Part shown: piece after piece, positions 4,968-13,564 of the stretch
How positions within the stretch are numbered: position 1 is the first letter of the stretch
Layout of the letters: each line of letters opens with the position of its first letter
NCBI GenBank assembly: GCA_013177935.1
Contig: JABLXZ010000003.1
Coordinates: 1-64,000, forward strand
Reading direction: 5' to 3'
From: a candidate division WOR-3 bacterium
Lineage (GTDB): Bacteria > Hydrothermota > Tepidihabitantia > Tepidihabitantales > Tepidihabitantaceae
DNA: 64,000 nucleotides
Notes under the pieces: model-generated
Told to the model about the DNA's origin: nothing
What the model saw: the letters and a program-made list of their open reading frames with translations, nothing else
Database searches by the model: none
Position numbers and translations under genes: made by a program

Positions 4968-5558
4968 GTGAACGACGTAAAAGAACTGGTTGAGGCTGTT
5001 GCCCATTGGTTAGCTTTTGAAATTGCCTGCAAAAGGGAACGGTTTCTATCTGAACGTGCACTGAGTTATCCACTGGTTCAATTTGCGCAATCACATAACT
5101 ATGAATTGGAAAGAGAGATAACTGGCGGCAATAGCGAAAGGATAGACTACGAATTAAAAAGAGATAACGTTGGGATAGGCTACTTTGAAGCCAAATTGAT
5201 TGAAGCCGAGGAGCCTAACGTGCTCTCTTTTTGCTATGATATAGCGAAACTCCTTGCCCGCAGCGAACAAGAATCGATAGGATGCTATTTACTGGTCGTA
5301 TTGCACAGTCAGAAGGGTTTCAATTTTGCTCGACTCCGACCTCTTATGCTGGACAATGACGAATGGAATACGGTCAGCAGAGCCGATGATTTATGGGAAA
5401 GTTTTCAGAAGGAGGGGATAAAATCCTTGTTTGAAAACCCGAATAGTAGACCGAGTTGGAGCCAATTCAGAGTAAGGCATAGACACCATATTAATCTGGC
5501 TGTATCGAATAAACATATATTTGTAGGCGTGTGGGAAGTAGATTTACCTGATCAATAG
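4968..5558 (+). CDS. Hypothetical protein, possible PD-(D/E)XK nuclease fold
   Basis: A 196-residue cytosolic protein read from a GTG start with AAAGGAGGT just upstream. The stretch RIDYELKRDNVGIGYFEAKL gives D60 and E74-A-K76, the spacing of a PD-(D/E)XK nuclease core: an acidic residue at a beta-strand start, then ExK at the end of the next strand. The text that follows (LLARSEQESIGCYLLVVLHS) looks like the helix-strand continuation of that fold. No other domain is seen. It lies 94 nt after the AAA+ gene on the same strand. The assignment rests on a short motif only and is inference. Its codons are richer in A/T than those of clpB. Confidence 0.6.
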   Translation: MNDVKELVEAVAHWLAFEIACKRERFLSERALSYPLVQFAQSHNYELEREITGGNSERIDYELKRDNVGIGYFEAKLIEAEEPNVLSFCYDIAKLLARSEQESIGCYLLVVLHSQKGFNFARLRPLMLDNDEWNTVSRADDLWESFQKEGIKSLFENPNSRPSWSQFRVRHRHHINLAVSNKHIFVGVWEVDLPDQ

Positions 5559-5779: not shown

Positions 5780-7009
5780 TTATGTCCTATAGTTCTCGAT
5801 TAACTCTCGGTTGTTATTATATCCTGCGCAACAGTGTCTAATAGGACATTCTCTGCAGTTAGGCTCGTCGTGATTGAAACAATAATTTGTGCCTATGAAC
5901 ATTAAGCCATCGTCTAAATCACCAATGCCGTATCCAGTGCCTAACAATGAAACATTGGGAATTTGTTGAATCTCCACCATTGTTGGTCTTCTTATCCTTG
6001 TTTTCAGATGGTCAAGACAGATGGTTGCGTAAGAATCCATAAATTCTTGAGATTCAGAAAACAATTGTGACTTACATCCCCTGATATTGGTTACCCGGAT
6101 ATAATGCTTACCATCTTTTCCCGCTTCCTTCTGGATTACATTCCAATTTTCGTAATCGTCAATCTCGGCGCAGTTAAGCAAAAAGCCAATACGAAACAAA
6201 ACACGGCCGGCATTACTATCAAGCGGCAATTCGTAGGAAAGGGGGCCGAAACAATCGTCAGTCCTTCTTGTTAGTTTAAATGTGTGGACAAACCACTTGG
6301 CGAAGAGATGGCAGGCTTTGTCACCAATAGCACTGCCCAAACCGTACCTTTCATTGTCCTTTAACATCTTGCTCATAATTTCTGCTGAGTCCCAACTTTC
6401 AATATAATCTACAAGAGGCTCTTGAGATTCTTGTTCATTCTTCCTGAGGTCTCTCTCGAGAAGAAGGGGTAAACATAGGGGAACTCCCCAGCGATAAACA
6501 CTGTAATCTAACACCTGTTTGGTTGATACAATACCACGGGTGGATTGGCTGAAAAATAGGCTATACTTATTGGGAGTTGAATTGTTGACTCTTGCCCATT
6601 CATCGGCACGAATATTCCTTATATTTTGGTGCTTATCTAAGATGCTATCAATAGCGATACCCAATTCTTTGAAAAAATCTAATGGTCGGTGGAAAATCCT
6701 TATTTCATTTTGGTAAAGTGTATTGGTTACATCCCGAAGTAGTAGCCCAACTCCTTCCATATCCGGTCCCTGGTCTAATACCGCATTGACAAGCAGGTAT
6801 CGGGAAAGAATCTCGCGCCGCGTCCATAAGCCGTCATTTTTATCAAGTTCATTGTACTTCACCTTGCCATTTCGGTTAAAATAATGTTCGAAGGGGGTTA
6901 TTCCCATTTTGGGAGGGTAAAGACTTCTTTCTCTACCGATTTGTGCTATTGTGACAATTAATTTTTTACTTTGTTCTATTTTTTGATTTATAGCCATACT
7001 TTTTCTCAT
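5780..7009 (-). CDS. HhH-GPD family DNA glycosylase-like protein with FeS cluster motif
   Basis: A 409-residue protein downstream of, and overlapping, a DNA methyltransferase gene. Features of the endonuclease III/MutY superfamily are visible. GLGSAIGDKACHLF (223-236) fits the helix-hairpin-helix, with K231 at the AP-lyase lysine position. LPLDSNAGRVLFRIGF (261-276) fits the Gly/Pro...Asp loop, with D264 as the catalytic aspartate. Cysteines 377, 385, 388 and 393/394 form a C-x7-C-x2-C-x5-C pattern like the 4Fe-4S loop of Nth. It is about twice the length of Nth, with an extra N-terminal region and about 15 more residues between Lys and Asp. An ATG at 6997 is an alternative start. The likely role is base excision linked to the methylation mark: mismatch repair or a glycosylase-type restriction enzyme (inference). 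Confidence 0.7.
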   Translation of the reverse strand: MRKSMAINQKIEQSKKLIVTIAQIGRERSLYPPKMGITPFEHYFNRNGKVKYNELDKNDGLWTRREILSRYLLVNAVLDQGPDMEGVGLLLRDVTNTLYQNEIRIFHRPLDFFKELGIAIDSILDKHQNIRNIRADEWARVNNSTPNKYSLFFSQSTRGIVSTKQVLDYSVYRWGVPLCLPLLLERDLRKNEQESQEPLVDYIESWDSAEIMSKMLKDNERYGLGSAIGDKACHLFAKWFVHTFKLTRRTDDCFGPLSYELPLDSNAGRVLFRIGFLLNCAEIDDYENWNVIQKEAGKDGKHYIRVTNIRGCKSQLFSESQEFMDSYATICLDHLKTRIRRPTMVEIQQIPNVSLLGTGYGIGDLDDGLMFIGTNYCFNHDEPNCRECPIRHCCAGYNNNRELIENYRT

Positions 7010-7931
7010 TGACTATAACCTCTTCAATTTTTAATTGCCTGTCAATTTGAGGTGATTTTGTCACTCTTTTTCGGTTCCCCAATTTAACGCCACGGTCCTT
7101 AACCGCAATCTTCTCAAAAATTGAGATGAGTTGTTCTCTTAAATACAAAGGCTCACACAGCCGCTGTTGAGCAATCTGCACATATTTCTCCTTTATTTCA
7201 TACCCCACCCATCTACGATTAAGGGCATTGGCGACTTTTATTGTTGTTCCTATACCCAGAAATGGGTCTAAAACTAATTCTCCAGTATAAGAAAAGAGTT
7301 TAATAAGTCGGTAAGGTATTTCTTCGGGAAAAGGACAAGGGTGGTCATACTGGTTGGGTGGAACTGGTGCAATATGCCAGATGTTATTTGCCAACTCTTT
7401 TGTAAACAACTCATCAATAGGAATCTTGTTACTTTCCTTTTCCTCTTTTGTTCTCTCCTTATAAATTTTAGGTCCGCCTTTTCTGAATATCAAAATGTAT
7501 TCGGTCATAATATTGGGGCAATAATAACCCGGGTAGGGGTTTTGGATTGTTACACCCGCTCGTTTTACGCCGCCCGTTACCTTATACCAGATGATATCCT
7601 GGTGAAACTCATAGCCGATACCTTCCATTAACTGGACAAAATGGTGGGGCAAAGGATAGTGCTTTCCGTTATAAAGAACGGTTCCTATAACAACGCAGCA
7701 GAAACCACCCGGTTTTAATACACGATAACACTCCTGAAAACATCCTTTAAGCCATACTAAATATTTTTCATACTCCTCGCCTTTTCTTGTTCTGAACCAT
7801 TTCGTATTGTCTAAAGTATGAACATCATAATCAATGGCATTCCAATAAGGAGGGGAGGTAATTATTAAATCTACTTCTCCCGTTTTTAGCTCGTCCATTT
7901 TCTCACAGGATTTAATAAAGATTTTGTTCAT
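6966..7931 (-). CDS. Site-specific DNA methyltransferase (beta class, N4-cytosine type likely)
   Basis: A 321-residue SAM-dependent DNA amino-methyltransferase. The catalytic motif TSPPYW is at residues 25-30 and the SAM-binding motif LDPFLGIGTT follows at 221-230, so the order is motif IV then motif I, the beta class. SPPY is commonest in N4-cytosine enzymes, though some N6-adenine enzymes carry it. VLKPGGF (71-77) and RRWVGYEIKEKYVQIAQQRL (239-258) fit the remaining motifs, and the middle 120-200 would be the target recognition part. The glycosylase-like gene begins inside its last 44 nt. A promoter with TTGACA and a 16-nt spacer lies upstream, with no Shine-Dalgarno sequence. Together they form an unusual modification module. 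Confidence 0.9.
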   Translation of the reverse strand: MNKIFIKSCEKMDELKTGEVDLIITSPPYWNAIDYDVHTLDNTKWFRTRKGEEYEKYLVWLKGCFQECYRVLKPGGFCCVVIGTVLYNGKHYPLPHHFVQLMEGIGYEFHQDIIWYKVTGGVKRAGVTIQNPYPGYYCPNIMTEYILIFRKGGPKIYKERTKEEKESNKIPIDELFTKELANNIWHIAPVPPNQYDHPCPFPEEIPYRLIKLFSYTGELVLDPFLGIGTTIKVANALNRRWVGYEIKEKYVQIAQQRLCEPLYLREQLISIFEKIAVKDRGVKLGNRKRVTKSPQIDRQLKIEEVIVNEKKYGYKSKNRTK

Positions 7932-9269: not shown

Positions 9270-9470
9270 ATGAAGTTGGTGACAAGTAAAGAGCCGTTAG
9301 TTGCCAAATACTCCATTGTTGTGCCAGACCACAGAAAGCAGTTCTGTTTATGGGCTACCTTACTCTGTGCATCACAGCAGTTTTTGCAAATTACCGTCGG
9401 CATATGCTTTTATGCTGAAGGTATTATCCGCAACGCCGTGCCAAGTAAAATTAAGGTAAGTGTTAAATGA
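9270..9470 (+). CDS. Possible small first gene of the Dam-HerA-NurA operon
   Basis: A 66-codon ORF (starting MKLVTSKEPLVAKYS) lying 13 nt after a promoter-like sequence. Its TGA stop overlaps the ATG of the methyltransferase in an ATGA arrangement, the same coupling as between the next two genes. The product is unrecognised: mildly basic, with a hydrophobic cysteine-containing middle (residues 26-50). A 249-nt minus-strand frame overlaps most of it, so the coding claim rests only on promoter position and the stop/start overlap. It could be a leader peptide, a small regulator or chance. Confidence 0.35.
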   Translation: MKLVTSKEPLVAKYSIVVPDHRKQFCLWATLLCASQQFLQITVGICFYAEGIIRNAVPSKIKVSVK

Positions 9471-10294
9471 GCCCCCAAAATATCAGTTTTATCCGATATC
9501 CCGGCGGGAAACAAAGGATTTTAAACTATATAATCCCTTATTTGCCCTCAAGGAATATGATTAAAAGGAGATTTATAGAACCATTTTTAGGTAGTGGGGC
9601 GGTATTTTTTGCATTAAACCCGAAGCGTGCTTTATTGGCAGATATTAACCGAGAACTCATTGCGCTGTATCGTGGAATACGTCGTTTTCCATTGAGAGTC
9701 TGGAAAATATACAGGAGTTTCCCCAAAACTAAAAAAGCATATTACAAAATTCGGTCAATCCGGTGCAGTGAAAGTGACTTGGCATTTATGGCAGCCAGAA
9801 TTCTTTATTTAAACAGAACTTGTTTTAAGGGGATGTGGAGGCAAAACGCAAACGGTGAATTTAATGTTGGGTATGGTGGAGAAGACAGACGGTGGGCAAT
9901 CAACCAAGCAGTTTTAAGAGGGGTTTCCGCTAGATTAAAAAACGCAATCTTAAAACACAGTGATTTTGAGAAAGTCATAGACGAAGGGGAAAAAGGAGAT
10001 TTTATTTTTGCTGATCCACCATACAAACCAGGAGAACGAGAGCTGTCTCATTCCCATTATGTATATAGCAAATTTGACTTTTCAGAATATCAAAGGCTGG
10101 CAAAAGCTTTGAGCAGAGCATCAAAGAGAGGTGTAAAATGGGCATTGACTATTTCATCTCATCCTGATATATTGAACTTATTTGATGGAAATTATATTAC
10201 ACCTCTACCCAAAGGAACAGGAAAAAAGCCTGGCATTTTAACAAATAATTCAGGGGAGGTTCTAATTCTAAATTACAAGGAGGTACTTCAATGA
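9467..10294 (+). CDS. Dam-type (D12 class) DNA adenine N6-methyltransferase
   Basis: A 275-residue alpha-class DNA methyltransferase. RYPGGKQR near residue 11 and EPFLGSGAVFF near 38 form the SAM-binding region; the catalytic DPPY is at 183-186, followed by the ending SGEVLILNY typical of D12 proteins. The order motif I, target recognition, motif IV is that of Dam, DpnII and EcoRV methylases, so the product should be N6-methyladenine. The target cannot be read from sequence. Its ATG shares an ATGA overlap with the small ORF before it, and its own stop overlaps the HerA start by 4 nt. It is A/T-rich relative to the window and is probably the self-marking arm of a defence operon. Confidence 0.92.
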   Translation: MSPQNISFIRYPGGKQRILNYIIPYLPSRNMIKRRFIEPFLGSGAVFFALNPKRALLADINRELIALYRGIRRFPLRVWKIYRSFPKTKKAYYKIRSIRCSESDLAFMAARILYLNRTCFKGMWRQNANGEFNVGYGGEDRRWAINQAVLRGVSARLKNAILKHSDFEKVIDEGEKGDFIFADPPYKPGERELSHSHYVYSKFDFSEYQRLAKALSRASKRGVKWALTISSHPDILNLFDGNYITPLPKGTGKKPGILTNNSGEVLILNYKEVLQ

Positions 10295-12258
10295 AAGATT
10301 TCTTTGAAAAAGCAGCAATGCAAAATCACCCACTTAGGGTTTTGCAAGAATTCCTTAAACAGGAAAAAGATAACGAACAAGCAAAAAGATACGATGCTAT
10401 GCGTTTCGTTGGATATGTTCTTGAAATTGGATATGATACAGTAACAATTATAACTTCTGACCCCTTCAAGATTGCCGTGGGGGGAGTGCCTCGAAATTCT
10501 TTACTTATTATGGTGCCAGCTAATTATGATACATTACCGGCACATTTTACATTGTTACGGGTTTTAGAAGCGGCACCTACTCCACTTACCAAAGAAGTCC
10601 AGCAGACATATTTTGAATTACAGAAAAAATCAATGCCAGAACTCGATGTTTTCACTCAGAGCGAATTACAATGGGGAGCGCTTAAGTCCGCAGTCCTTGG
10701 TATGTTTTACCCTCATCCCGAAAAATCGGATGCAATAGAATTCTCGGGTGATTTAAGTAATTTCGTTAGTGCACATAAATATCGGGTTTATGCACCTAAT
10801 GATGAATTATTGAATCTGATGATCAATTCAATGGTCCCTAAAGATAACCGCTTTCTTTTAGGAGAATTGCGACTGACAGAGTGCAGGTTGCCCTTACCCA
10901 ATAAGCCTTTACCCAAAGTACCTGTTTATGTCTCAGCCAGGGATTTTATGGGTACGCGCACAGCAATGTTCGGTAAGACACGATTAGGGAAAAGTAATGT
11001 GGTTAAATTGATTGCACAGAGCTTAATTGAGACGACAAAGAAAACAAAAAATGTGGGGCAACTCATATTTGACATCAATGGTGAGTATGCTAACGATAAT
11101 CCACAGGACAACAGTTTTTCTTTAAGAAGTGCATATCATGACAGGTGTGTAGTTTATGCTTTAACACAAAAACCAGGGACGCAATCACGTCCCTTAAAGC
11201 TCAATTTTTATGAACATCCAGATCGTTCACACAGAGTATTGGCTGATTTACTGCAGGCCGAAGGACGTAATTCTATTTATGTGAAAGCTTTTTTAGGGGC
11301 GGAAATTCCTTCTCTTGAGCTATTAAATACAATTGCCGACCACGGCGAAAGAAAAAGGGCGGAACGAAGGATTTTAATGTATTGGGCTGTTCTCAAAAAA
11401 GCCGGATTTGATGTTAATGAGCGTGCTCTTTCAGACAAGTTGAGATTTGACCCGGGTTACAGTCAAAATCTCCGATCCCTCATTTGGAAGAGGCAAACTC
11501 CTCCTCGTATCAATTCGTTATCATCGCTTGTCGAAGAGTTCGACATGATAGCAAAATTTATAAGGGAGGAACCAAATCATGTCGCACTAAGATCTTCAGG
11601 GAGTGGTGAAACTTTGTTCAGACCCGATGACCAAGCAATTCTCAATTTTCTTAATCCATCAGCCGGTGCAGGACCTGCAATGATTCAACGCTTTCGCATT
11701 TATCACGACAGGAATGCAGGTGATTTTTCCAAAGAAATAATCAAGTTATTAGACGAGGGGTTTACAGTTATTTTGGATCTCAGTAACGCAAATCCCGAAG
11801 TAATGAATTACTTTTCCGAAGAGTTATCAGCAGCTGTTTTCGTGCATCAGGTTGATAAATTCTCAAATAATCAGTTAGAGAATCATTTCATCCAACTATA
11901 TTTTGAGGAAGCACATAACCTATTCCCTCTTTCGGGAGACGTTACCACAATTTATAGTCGTTTAGCAAAAGAAGGCGCAAAATATCATATTGGAATGGTG
12001 TATTCCACTCAGTCCCCAACAACCATCAATAAAGACCTATTGGCACAAACCGAGAATTTTTTTGTTGCCCATTTGGCATCTCAAGATGATGTTAATATGC
12101 TTGCTAAGGTAAACATTGCATACGAGAGCCTAAAATATGATATCCTTCAAGCAAAAACGGTAGGCTACATTAGAATGCTAACTCGCTCACATCGTTTCGT
12201 TGTATCTTTCCAAGCAAGGAAATTTGAACCGCCAAATTTAAACGTAAAGGGAAAATAG
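10291..12258 (+). CDS. HerA-like DNA translocase/ATPase
   Basis: A 655-residue HerA/FtsK-superfamily ATPase. A beta-rich N-terminal region (about 35-215, the position of the HAS-barrel) precedes Walker A GKTRLGKS (228-235). FDINGEYAND follows as the HerA-type switch segment, then a helical insert, the Walker B/glutamate motif YFEEAHNLFP (EEAH 539-542) and the sensor STQSPTTINKDLL. HerA hexamers pump duplex DNA and work with NurA nuclease, which is encoded right after it. It overlaps the methyltransferase by 4 nt and the nuclease starts 1 nt later, so all three should be made in fixed proportion. Linking HerA to a DNA methylase suggests restriction rather than end resection in recombination (inference). 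Confidence 0.88.
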   Translation: MKDFFEKAAMQNHPLRVLQEFLKQEKDNEQAKRYDAMRFVGYVLEIGYDTVTIITSDPFKIAVGGVPRNSLLIMVPANYDTLPAHFTLLRVLEAAPTPLTKEVQQTYFELQKKSMPELDVFTQSELQWGALKSAVLGMFYPHPEKSDAIEFSGDLSNFVSAHKYRVYAPNDELLNLMINSMVPKDNRFLLGELRLTECRLPLPNKPLPKVPVYVSARDFMGTRTAMFGKTRLGKSNVVKLIAQSLIETTKKTKNVGQLIFDINGEYANDNPQDNSFSLRSAYHDRCVVYALTQKPGTQSRPLKLNFYEHPDRSHRVLADLLQAEGRNSIYVKAFLGAEIPSLELLNTIADHGERKRAERRILMYWAVLKKAGFDVNERALSDKLRFDPGYSQNLRSLIWKRQTPPRINSLSSLVEEFDMIAKFIREEPNHVALRSSGSGETLFRPDDQAILNFLNPSAGAGPAMIQRFRIYHDRNAGDFSKEIIKLLDEGFTVILDLSNANPEVMNYFSEELSAAVFVHQVDKFSNNQLENHFIQLYFEEAHNLFPLSGDVTTIYSRLAKEGAKYHIGMVYSTQSPTTINKDLLAQTENFFVAHLASQDDVNMLAKVNIAYESLKYDILQAKTVGYIRMLTRSHRFVVSFQARKFEPPNLNVKGK

Positions 12259-12259
12259 A

Positions 12260-13564
12260 ATGCCTTACAAGGCCGGAGCACGCTTGCCTGGTGAGAGATC
12301 TAGTCGTCTTGGTCATCTTGAAGTTCTTAAAAGTGAACTTGTCAATGAGTTGGTTAAGAATTTTCAAGAGAGCCCGATAAGTATGATAAAAACAAAACCT
12401 AATTGGGAACCAATTCCAGTAAATGGAAAACCACTTACTATAGTTTTCGGTATTGATGGTTCGATACAACCTATCGAGTCGGAAACGCCGCCTTTTAAAA
12501 GGCTTGCTTTTGTGAAAACTGCGTTGTTAAGAATTGATCACTTCGCACTTTCTAAAATTGATAAAGAGTATCCCCATCCGTTTGCATTACGTGATATACT
12601 TCGTGATTCGGCATTATACCACGCAACGGTTTTCCCTTTAAGGCACGTTTCCGTTTCCGGTCAAAATACATATCACGCAATAAGAAGGATTATTTTTGAT
12701 TCATTAAAAGACAAATCTTTAGATGGCGAACCGATGGAAACGCTTAAATGGATTGCATATGAAAAATGGGATGGGAAGCAGAAACAATTACCTCTTTTTG
12801 AATGTCCTCATTGTGAAAAAACCGTTGCTACGCTCCCATATGATGCGGAGACTGGTAAATGCCCCCAATGCAATGGTGAGCTATTTTTAACAGATATGCT
12901 CGGTTTTCATCAGGAAATGGCTCCGGATTCTGCTCCAGATACTATTGCAACGGCTTACATGAGTATTCATGAAGTTTTATTGCTATTTACAGGCATTCGA
13001 TACTATTGGGGGAAAAATAAGGACGTTCTTACTAAATGTCTCTTTGTAAAAGATGGCCCCCTTGCAATTCGTGCCCAATATTCAAAGCTTGTAGCGCCTA
13101 TTCGTCGATTTCTTTCGTTTGCAAGAGACCAAGGTTATCCAGTACATATAATTGGACAGGAAAAATCAGGAAGGTTTTACGAGCACTTAGAACTCATAGG
13201 GAGAAATGCACCAGACGGAAGTATCTTTATACCGGGTGACAAATATATAAAAGAAGAAATTCAGCAAAGACCTAATACGGGGGCTCCATATGGTAAAGAT
13301 ACAAATTATGGGGCAAAGGTTTTTGTTAAACTCAGTAACTATCATCAAATGGTATTAAATATTCCTACGGGTGAATTTACTCAAAATCCCAAAATCTCTC
13401 ATTTAATTGGCGCTAGTAACATTTTTGCTACCCTGCCAACCATTTTGAGCCAACGATTTGAAGGAGCCCTTTTACCCGTTGAACTTGCACACGGTATTGC
13501 TTCTCTTTCTACTTACCCCTCAGCACAAATTCTTACAATTTTTGCAGAAGCAGGAAGTGTTTAG
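12260..13564 (+). CDS. NurA-like nuclease with zinc-ribbon insertion
   Basis: A 434-residue protein directly after HerA. FGIDGSIQ (D66) fits the first metal-binding motif of NurA, LFVKDGPLAI (D265) the second, followed by HIIGQEKSGRFYEHL and the C-terminal LPVELAHGIASLS region, in the order expected for NurA. An inserted zinc ribbon (Cys182, 185, 201, 204) is not something I associate with ordinary NurA and could sense a DNA end or partner. NurA is a 5'-3' exonuclease/endonuclease stimulated by HerA. The assignment rests on gene order plus short motifs. No signal or membrane segment is seen. A gap of 160 nt follows, with only a weak A/T-rich palindrome. Confidence 0.7.
   Translation: MPYKAGARLPGERSSRLGHLEVLKSELVNELVKNFQESPISMIKTKPNWEPIPVNGKPLTIVFGIDGSIQPIESETPPFKRLAFVKTALLRIDHFALSKIDKEYPHPFALRDILRDSALYHATVFPLRHVSVSGQNTYHAIRRIIFDSLKDKSLDGEPMETLKWIAYEKWDGKQKQLPLFECPHCEKTVATLPYDAETGKCPQCNGELFLTDMLGFHQEMAPDSAPDTIATAYMSIHEVLLLFTGIRYYWGKNKDVLTKCLFVKDGPLAIRAQYSKLVAPIRRFLSFARDQGYPVHIIGQEKSGRFYEHLELIGRNAPDGSIFIPGDKYIKEEIQQRPNTGAPYGKDTNYGAKVFVKLSNYHQMVLNIPTGEFTQNPKISHLIGASNIFATLPTILSQRFEGALLPVELAHGIASLSTYPSAQILTIFAEAGSV

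Follow-up and report, generated by a model that had tools for sequence, protein, structure and literature searches.

A probable AGCT-specific restriction–modification pair whose predicted restriction enzyme has the fold of a base-excision repair glycosylase

The window analyzed here, a 64,000-nucleotide stretch of contig JABLXZ010000003.1 from a candidate division WOR-3 bacterium (assembly GCA_013177935.1), carries on its reverse strand two overlapping genes, one for a beta-class amino-methyltransferase of 321 residues and one for a 409-residue protein that resembles DNA glycosylases with the HhH-GPD (helix–hairpin–helix, HhH) fold and an iron–sulfur (FeS) cluster. The original prediction, made from the DNA sequence, had placed two open reading frames (ORFs) here with a 44-nt overlap, and both the ORFs and the overlap were confirmed. 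Our analysis indicates that the pair is probably a type II restriction–modification system directed at AGCT. The features that enter the argument are the following, all on the (-) strand.

5780-7009 (-): glycosylase-like ORF, a predicted restriction DNA glycosylase of 409 residues, HhH-GPD/FeS fold with large insertions (ORF call, AlphaFold2, Foldseek, 33-row alignment)
6966-7931 (-): methyltransferase ORF, the predicted cognate beta-class amino-methyltransferase of 321 residues, upstream of the glycosylase gene (Pfam, PADLOC and Protein Data Bank (PDB) matches)
6281-6385 (-): helix–hairpin–helix element containing GLGSAIGDKAC, residues 209-243 (model helices 209-218 and 229-243 flank the hairpin)
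6317-6319 (-): K231, the lysine that opens the second HhH helix, predicted to be catalytic (Schiff-base) (invariant in 33 sequences; weak hhalign match)
6218-6220 (-): D264, predicted catalytic aspartate directly before helix 265-273 (invariant in 33 sequences; weak hhalign match)
6770-6772 (-): Q80, part of the LDQGPD loop and probably placed like the intercalating glutamine of Nth (invariant)
5828-5881 (-): 4Fe-4S cluster loop, C377-x7-C385-x2-C388-x5-C394 (invariant in full-length members; NCBIfam mutY; hhalign)
7842-7856 (-): methyltransferase motif IV, SPPYW, residues 26-30 (sequence)
7248-7268 (-): methyltransferase motif I, DPFLGIG, residues 222-228 (sequence; the order IV then I defines the beta class)

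The glycosylase-like ORF begins inside the methyltransferase ORF. Because a homolog (locus L004) begins at the position of Met5 of the 409-residue protein, the true overlap of the two genes may be 32 nt rather than 44. The motifs named in the original prediction, GLGSAIGDKAC with K231, LPLDSNAGRV with D264 and the C-x7-C-x2-C-x5-C cluster, are all present in this protein, and its predicted structure backs the HhH-GPD/FeS assignment beyond what chance motif matches would allow. An AlphaFold2 model built from the family alignment has a predicted local distance difference test score (pLDDT) of 94.0 and a predicted template-modeling score (pTM) of 0.92. Searched against the PDB with Foldseek, it returned only EndoIII/MutY structures among its top six matches, led by Deinococcus EndoIII-3 (4uob; probability 1.00, TM-score of 0.53 on the target) and including mouse MUTYH (7ef9) and MutY, and no other credible fold. 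The top ten PDB matches of a separate AlphaFold2 model, of the Dehalococcoidia protein (L036), were all MutY. The fold check suggested with the original prediction thus yielded two models resembling EndoIII/MutY and no credible match to a different architecture.

The residues expected of a lyase-type glycosylase are conserved throughout the family. In the model, K231 begins the second hairpin helix and D264 just precedes a helix, the same placement as the HhH lysine and catalytic aspartate of Nth; the two residues are 33 positions apart here and 18 apart in Nth. Q80 lies in a loop between helices 64-78 and 84-100 and may be equivalent to the intercalating glutamine of Nth. K231, D264, Q80 and the LDQGPD loop are invariant in the 33-row family alignment, and C377, C385, C388 and C394 are present in every full-length member, missing only from the truncated or cut proteins L037, L013 and L028; lysine, aspartate, glutamine and the four cysteines are kept in sequences down to 45% identity. 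NCBIfam mutY recognizes only the FeS tail of the 409-residue protein (E = 0.0019), which is also the only part aligned when whole profiles are compared with Nth/MutY by hhalign (E = 5.6e-5), while sub-region alignments place K231 on the Nth lysine and D264 on the Nth/MutY catalytic aspartate weakly (E = 0.06). No Pfam family matches the protein at a threshold as loose as E = 1, and it has no match in PADLOC or PHROGs. It shares with Nth and MutY its predicted fold, catalytic aspartate, glutamine loop and cysteine loop, and with Nth the HhH lysine, but differs in its pairing with a methyltransferase and in its length, since several insertions enlarge a core of about 220 residues to 409. These insertions would be a natural place for sequence recognition.

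The partner is a member of the N6_N4_Mtase family (PF01555, E = 1.8e-47; PADLOC MTase_II, 3.8e-73), and among solved structures it comes closest to the putative modification methylase 2zie (9.4e-36) and to an N4-cytosine methyltransferase. Judged by sequence, this SPPYW enzyme probably makes N4-methylcytosine (m4C). Across the family, the partners fall into two groups, SPPY and DPPF/DPPY, and one DPPF partner is closest to CcrM, an N6-methyladenine (m6A) enzyme. All partners examined are PF01555 N6_N4 amino-methyltransferases; none is the C5-cytosine methylase of Mig.MthI-type modules. The S or D state changes at least four times along the glycosylase tree, which suggests that partners of m4C type and, probably, m6A type are exchangeable.

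To place the pair, we surveyed its relatives. The glycosylase-like gene occurs in 4 of 147 genomes of the window's phylum (the window included), and a scan of GTDB representatives found 36 loci, spread over bacteria and archaea in more than 17 phyla, that interleave on the tree. Bacterial carriers include Chloroflexota, Acidobacteriota, Omnitrophota, Nitrospirota, Fibrobacterota, Pseudomonadota and others; archaeal carriers include Asgard, DPANN, Thermoplasmata and Nitrososphaeria lineages and one haloarchaeon. Most of these records are metagenome bins; carriers of other origin include Thermanaerothrix daxensis GNS-1, Thioalkalivibrio sp. HK1 and Halorubrum yunnanense (truncated). Searches of plasmids, phages and viral contigs for the glycosylase-like protein found none. 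The pair is mobile across bacteria and archaea. At the H. yunnanense locus (L037, 3474-7047), the glycosylase has no FeS loop, and upstream of it are two divergently oriented ORFs with methyltransferase motifs; this is a degraded or rearranged copy.

A methyltransferase adjoins the glycosylase-like gene in 42 of 43 loci, and the exception (L042) ends at a contig end. It lies directly upstream on the same strand, overlapping or within about 110 bases, in 30 loci of the GTDB scan and downstream in three. When all ORFs of the 43 loci were clustered blindly, only these two families recurred widely, antisense shadow ORFs aside (43 glycosylase-like and 42 methyltransferase members), and no third recurrent gene or hidden nuclease partner was found. 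By comparison, none of 22 housekeeping Nth/MutY-type HhH-GPD genes in the window's genome and seven carrier genomes adjoins a methyltransferase; the lone motif match among these controls is an ORF at L067 without a Pfam family. This census, which the original prediction had proposed as a check, sets the family apart from housekeeping repair genes. The carriers examined also hold one to five separate ordinary HhH-GPD genes, and the paired protein is therefore not their Nth or MutY. Decay of the pair is one-sided: the glycosylase gene is interrupted in four loci (L018, L029, L038 and L041) and shortened in two (L039 and L037) with the methyltransferase intact in all six, and the reverse, a broken methyltransferase beside an intact glycosylase, was never seen among the loci examined. 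These cases are few, and errors in metagenome-assembled genomes may contribute to them.

If the protein restricts unmethylated sites, its carriers should avoid the target sequence. Among 4-bp palindromes, AGCT has an observed/expected ratio of 0.15 in T. daxensis, which has an SPPY partner (next lowest palindrome, 0.53), and of 0.03 in a Dehalococcoidia chromosome with a DPPF partner (next lowest, 0.36). Pooled over Chloroflexota, the ratio is 0.29 in carriers versus 0.88 in 20 non-carriers, a per-genome difference with the smallest P value of the 16 palindromes (P = 1.8e-5); GTAC does not differ between the groups. All 16 flanking contexts of AGCT are depleted in both T. daxensis and the Dehalococcoidia chromosome, and the avoided site is thus AGCT itself. 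Because AGCT is avoided with either class of methyltransferase, the conserved glycosylase-like protein would be the component that sets the target.

For lineage-matched controls, we counted the pattern SSAGCTSS and compared it with the reversed pattern. Only two carriers are known in the T. daxensis family, and of the 61 genomes counted there these two have the lowest densities, at 21 and 70 per Mb (median, 287). Among 98 genomes of its order, the Dehalococcoidia carrier comes lowest in both density and ratio, with 50 sites versus 3680 of the reversed pattern. The combined chance of these ranks is about 6e-6 if ranks are random.

Taken together, these data make it probable that the pair is an AGCT-directed type II restriction–modification system in which an HhH-GPD/FeS DNA glycosylase acts as the restriction enzyme. 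Restriction is favored over repair or erasure because AGCT avoidance, pairing and one-sided decay coincide, and base excision offers the simplest chemical account because the active site is of the lyase-type HhH-GPD kind and no nuclease partner recurs. In the mechanism we propose, the methyltransferase would mark host AGCT sites, probably as AGm4CT by the SPPYW class and possibly as m6AGCT by the DPPF/DPPY class. The glycosylase, presumably reading the sequence through its large insertions, would flip out and excise a base at unmethylated AGCT, with D264 and with K231 as nucleophile, and the abasic site would probably be nicked by beta-elimination. The palindrome would let it attack both strands, and methylation would block it. 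Base excision, the base excised, the lyase activity and the methylated position are inferred.

The original prediction had weighed restriction against a mark-repair role, in which the glycosylase would clear deamination or mismatch products at sites methylated by its partner. Mig.MthI, a glycosylase for T:G mismatches that is encoded next to a C5-cytosine methylase, has this layout, and the fold of the 409-residue protein agrees with it. But the partners found here are amino-methyltransferases of two or more interchangeable classes, which leave no common lesion to repair; the hosts also have ordinary HhH-GPD genes, and repair predicts no site avoidance. With AGCT avoided and decay confined to the glycosylase, we consider mark repair quite unlikely. 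A housekeeping enzyme that adjoins a methyltransferase by chance has the fold in its favor, yet its probability is close to nil given the near-constant pairing, its absence from the controls and the sparse distribution in the window's phylum. Both repair readings were rejected on the neighbor census and site avoidance.

A glycosylase that removes the methylated base, as an eraser in the manner of ROS1/Demeter or as a type IV defense like Brig, is suggested by a weak likeness of the FeS tail to ROS1 and by the existence of glycosylases that attack modified phage DNA (PMC13160076). Such an enzyme would be self-destructive beside a methyltransferase that makes its target, and it would have to act with both SPPY and DPPF classes. 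Orthodox type II systems, in which restriction and modification enzymes are separate, typically go with site avoidance, which, GATC excepted, was not seen for methyl-directed ones (PMC4687349), and this reading is very unlikely. The HhH fold could also serve AGCT-specific binding coupled to other chemistry, such as backbone nicking, or to control of the methyltransferase; the insertions are large, superposition statistics with known glycosylases are weak and the activity of the protein is a prediction. This is unlikely all the same, as the lysine, aspartate, glutamine and four cysteines persist in the most divergent members and no nuclease partner recurs.

Several observations weigh against restriction at AGCT by base excision. 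The support is computational (fold, residues, pairing, decay and avoidance), and the enzymatic activity is predicted. The Foldseek E-values are weak (0.07-0.17), which we attribute to the insertions that enlarge the core, and PF00730 (HhH-GPD) matches neither the 409-residue protein nor the 33 members, a matter of detection rather than of mechanism. GATC is also somewhat low in Chloroflexota carriers (P = 2.4e-3, second of the 16 palindromes), the avoidance tests are not fully independent, given the relatedness of carriers from one phylum, and by ratio to the reversed pattern rather than by density T. daxensis ranks third instead of second of 61. The carriers L021 (26 AGCT sites observed, 22 expected) and L027 (32 and 33) have intact pairs without avoidance, as would follow from recent acquisition or another site. 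In the window's own genome (G000), the AGCT ratio is 0.41, with 0.34 in the same-genus genome G111, which lacks the pair; there is no extra avoidance in a lineage (G000 and G111) that avoids many palindromes. Because AGCT avoidance does not discriminate the window's genome from G111, the AGCT assignment for the window's copy rests on homology.

The breadth of avoidance in this lineage is an observation in its own right. GATC is nearly absent from G000 and its sibling G111 (observed/expected ratios of 0.07 and 0.09), the ratios of CTAG, ACGT, GGCC and CATG stay under 0.3, and avoidance of 4-bp palindromes is thus unusually broad. Elsewhere in the window, a cluster at 9467-13564 (+) combines a Dam-family adenine methyltransferase (TIGR00571, 1.3e-53), which overlaps a HerA-type helicase gene (PF01935, 10291-12258), with a 434-residue protein (12260-13564) that has no Pfam family and is possibly NurA-like; it is possibly a separate, GATC-linked defense. 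A 196-residue ORF at 4968-5558 (+), convergent with the pair, has no family match apart from one sub-threshold Pfam match. By eye it shows a D...ExK pattern (RIDYEL...GYFEAK) and could be a PD-(D/E)XK nuclease; it is absent from the other copies of the module.

Among known systems, the closest parallel is the PabI (HALFPIPE) family. Its members are the only restriction glycosylases that we found described (PMC10273834, PMC4357717), and, that family excepted, all characterized restriction enzymes are phosphodiesterases (PMC10273834). R.PabI, R.HpyAXII and R.CcoLI share with the pair described here a glycosylase-type restriction component with a methyltransferase, a 4-bp palindromic site and mobility across bacteria and archaea. 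They also share its one-sided decay: in PabI systems, disruption affects the glycosylase gene more frequently than its methyltransferase partner (PMC4615327). They differ in fold, a half-pipe in PabI versus HhH-GPD/FeS here, the only credible result of our fold search; in partner, a gamma-type adenine methyltransferase versus beta-class enzymes of several sub-classes; and in site, GTAC versus AGCT.

Other systems share single traits with the pair. Mig.MthI also joins an HhH-GPD/FeS glycosylase to a methyltransferase, but its partner is a C5-cytosine methylase rather than an amino-methyltransferase, and the carriers described here avoid their site. Defense through abasic sites is common to Brig1/2/3, which belong to the uracil-glycosylase superfamily and target modified phage bases, with no methyltransferase mentioned (PMC13160076). 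AGCT m4C methyltransferases of archaea have been reported as orphans (PMC10609329, PMC6329791), HG11, HG16 and HG19 among them (PMC10609329); they resemble the methyltransferases described here in probable site and, for the SPPYW class, in probable mark.

We found no HhH-GPD restriction–modification system in the open-access literature searched, and as far as that literature shows the HhH-GPD/FeS fold has not earlier been used for restriction. The original prediction of a new type of restriction–modification pair would hold for the family and its fold but not for the principle, since base-excision restriction is already known from PabI. It is likely, with slightly more reserve than for the restriction reading itself, that the family is a second superfamily of restriction glycosylases with a fold unlike that of PabI, a base-excision repair enzyme turned AGCT-specific that has spread through bacteria and archaea with exchangeable methyltransferases of m4C type and probably m6A type, all protecting one and the same site. 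The predicted AGCT site, the active-site residues and the cultured carriers make this directly testable. If true, it would mean that a repair glycosylase is able to acquire genuine sequence specificity toward undamaged DNA, and it could account for apparent orphan methyltransferases, the partner of which carries a repair annotation or none. It would also link repair and immunity through the main fold of base-excision repair.
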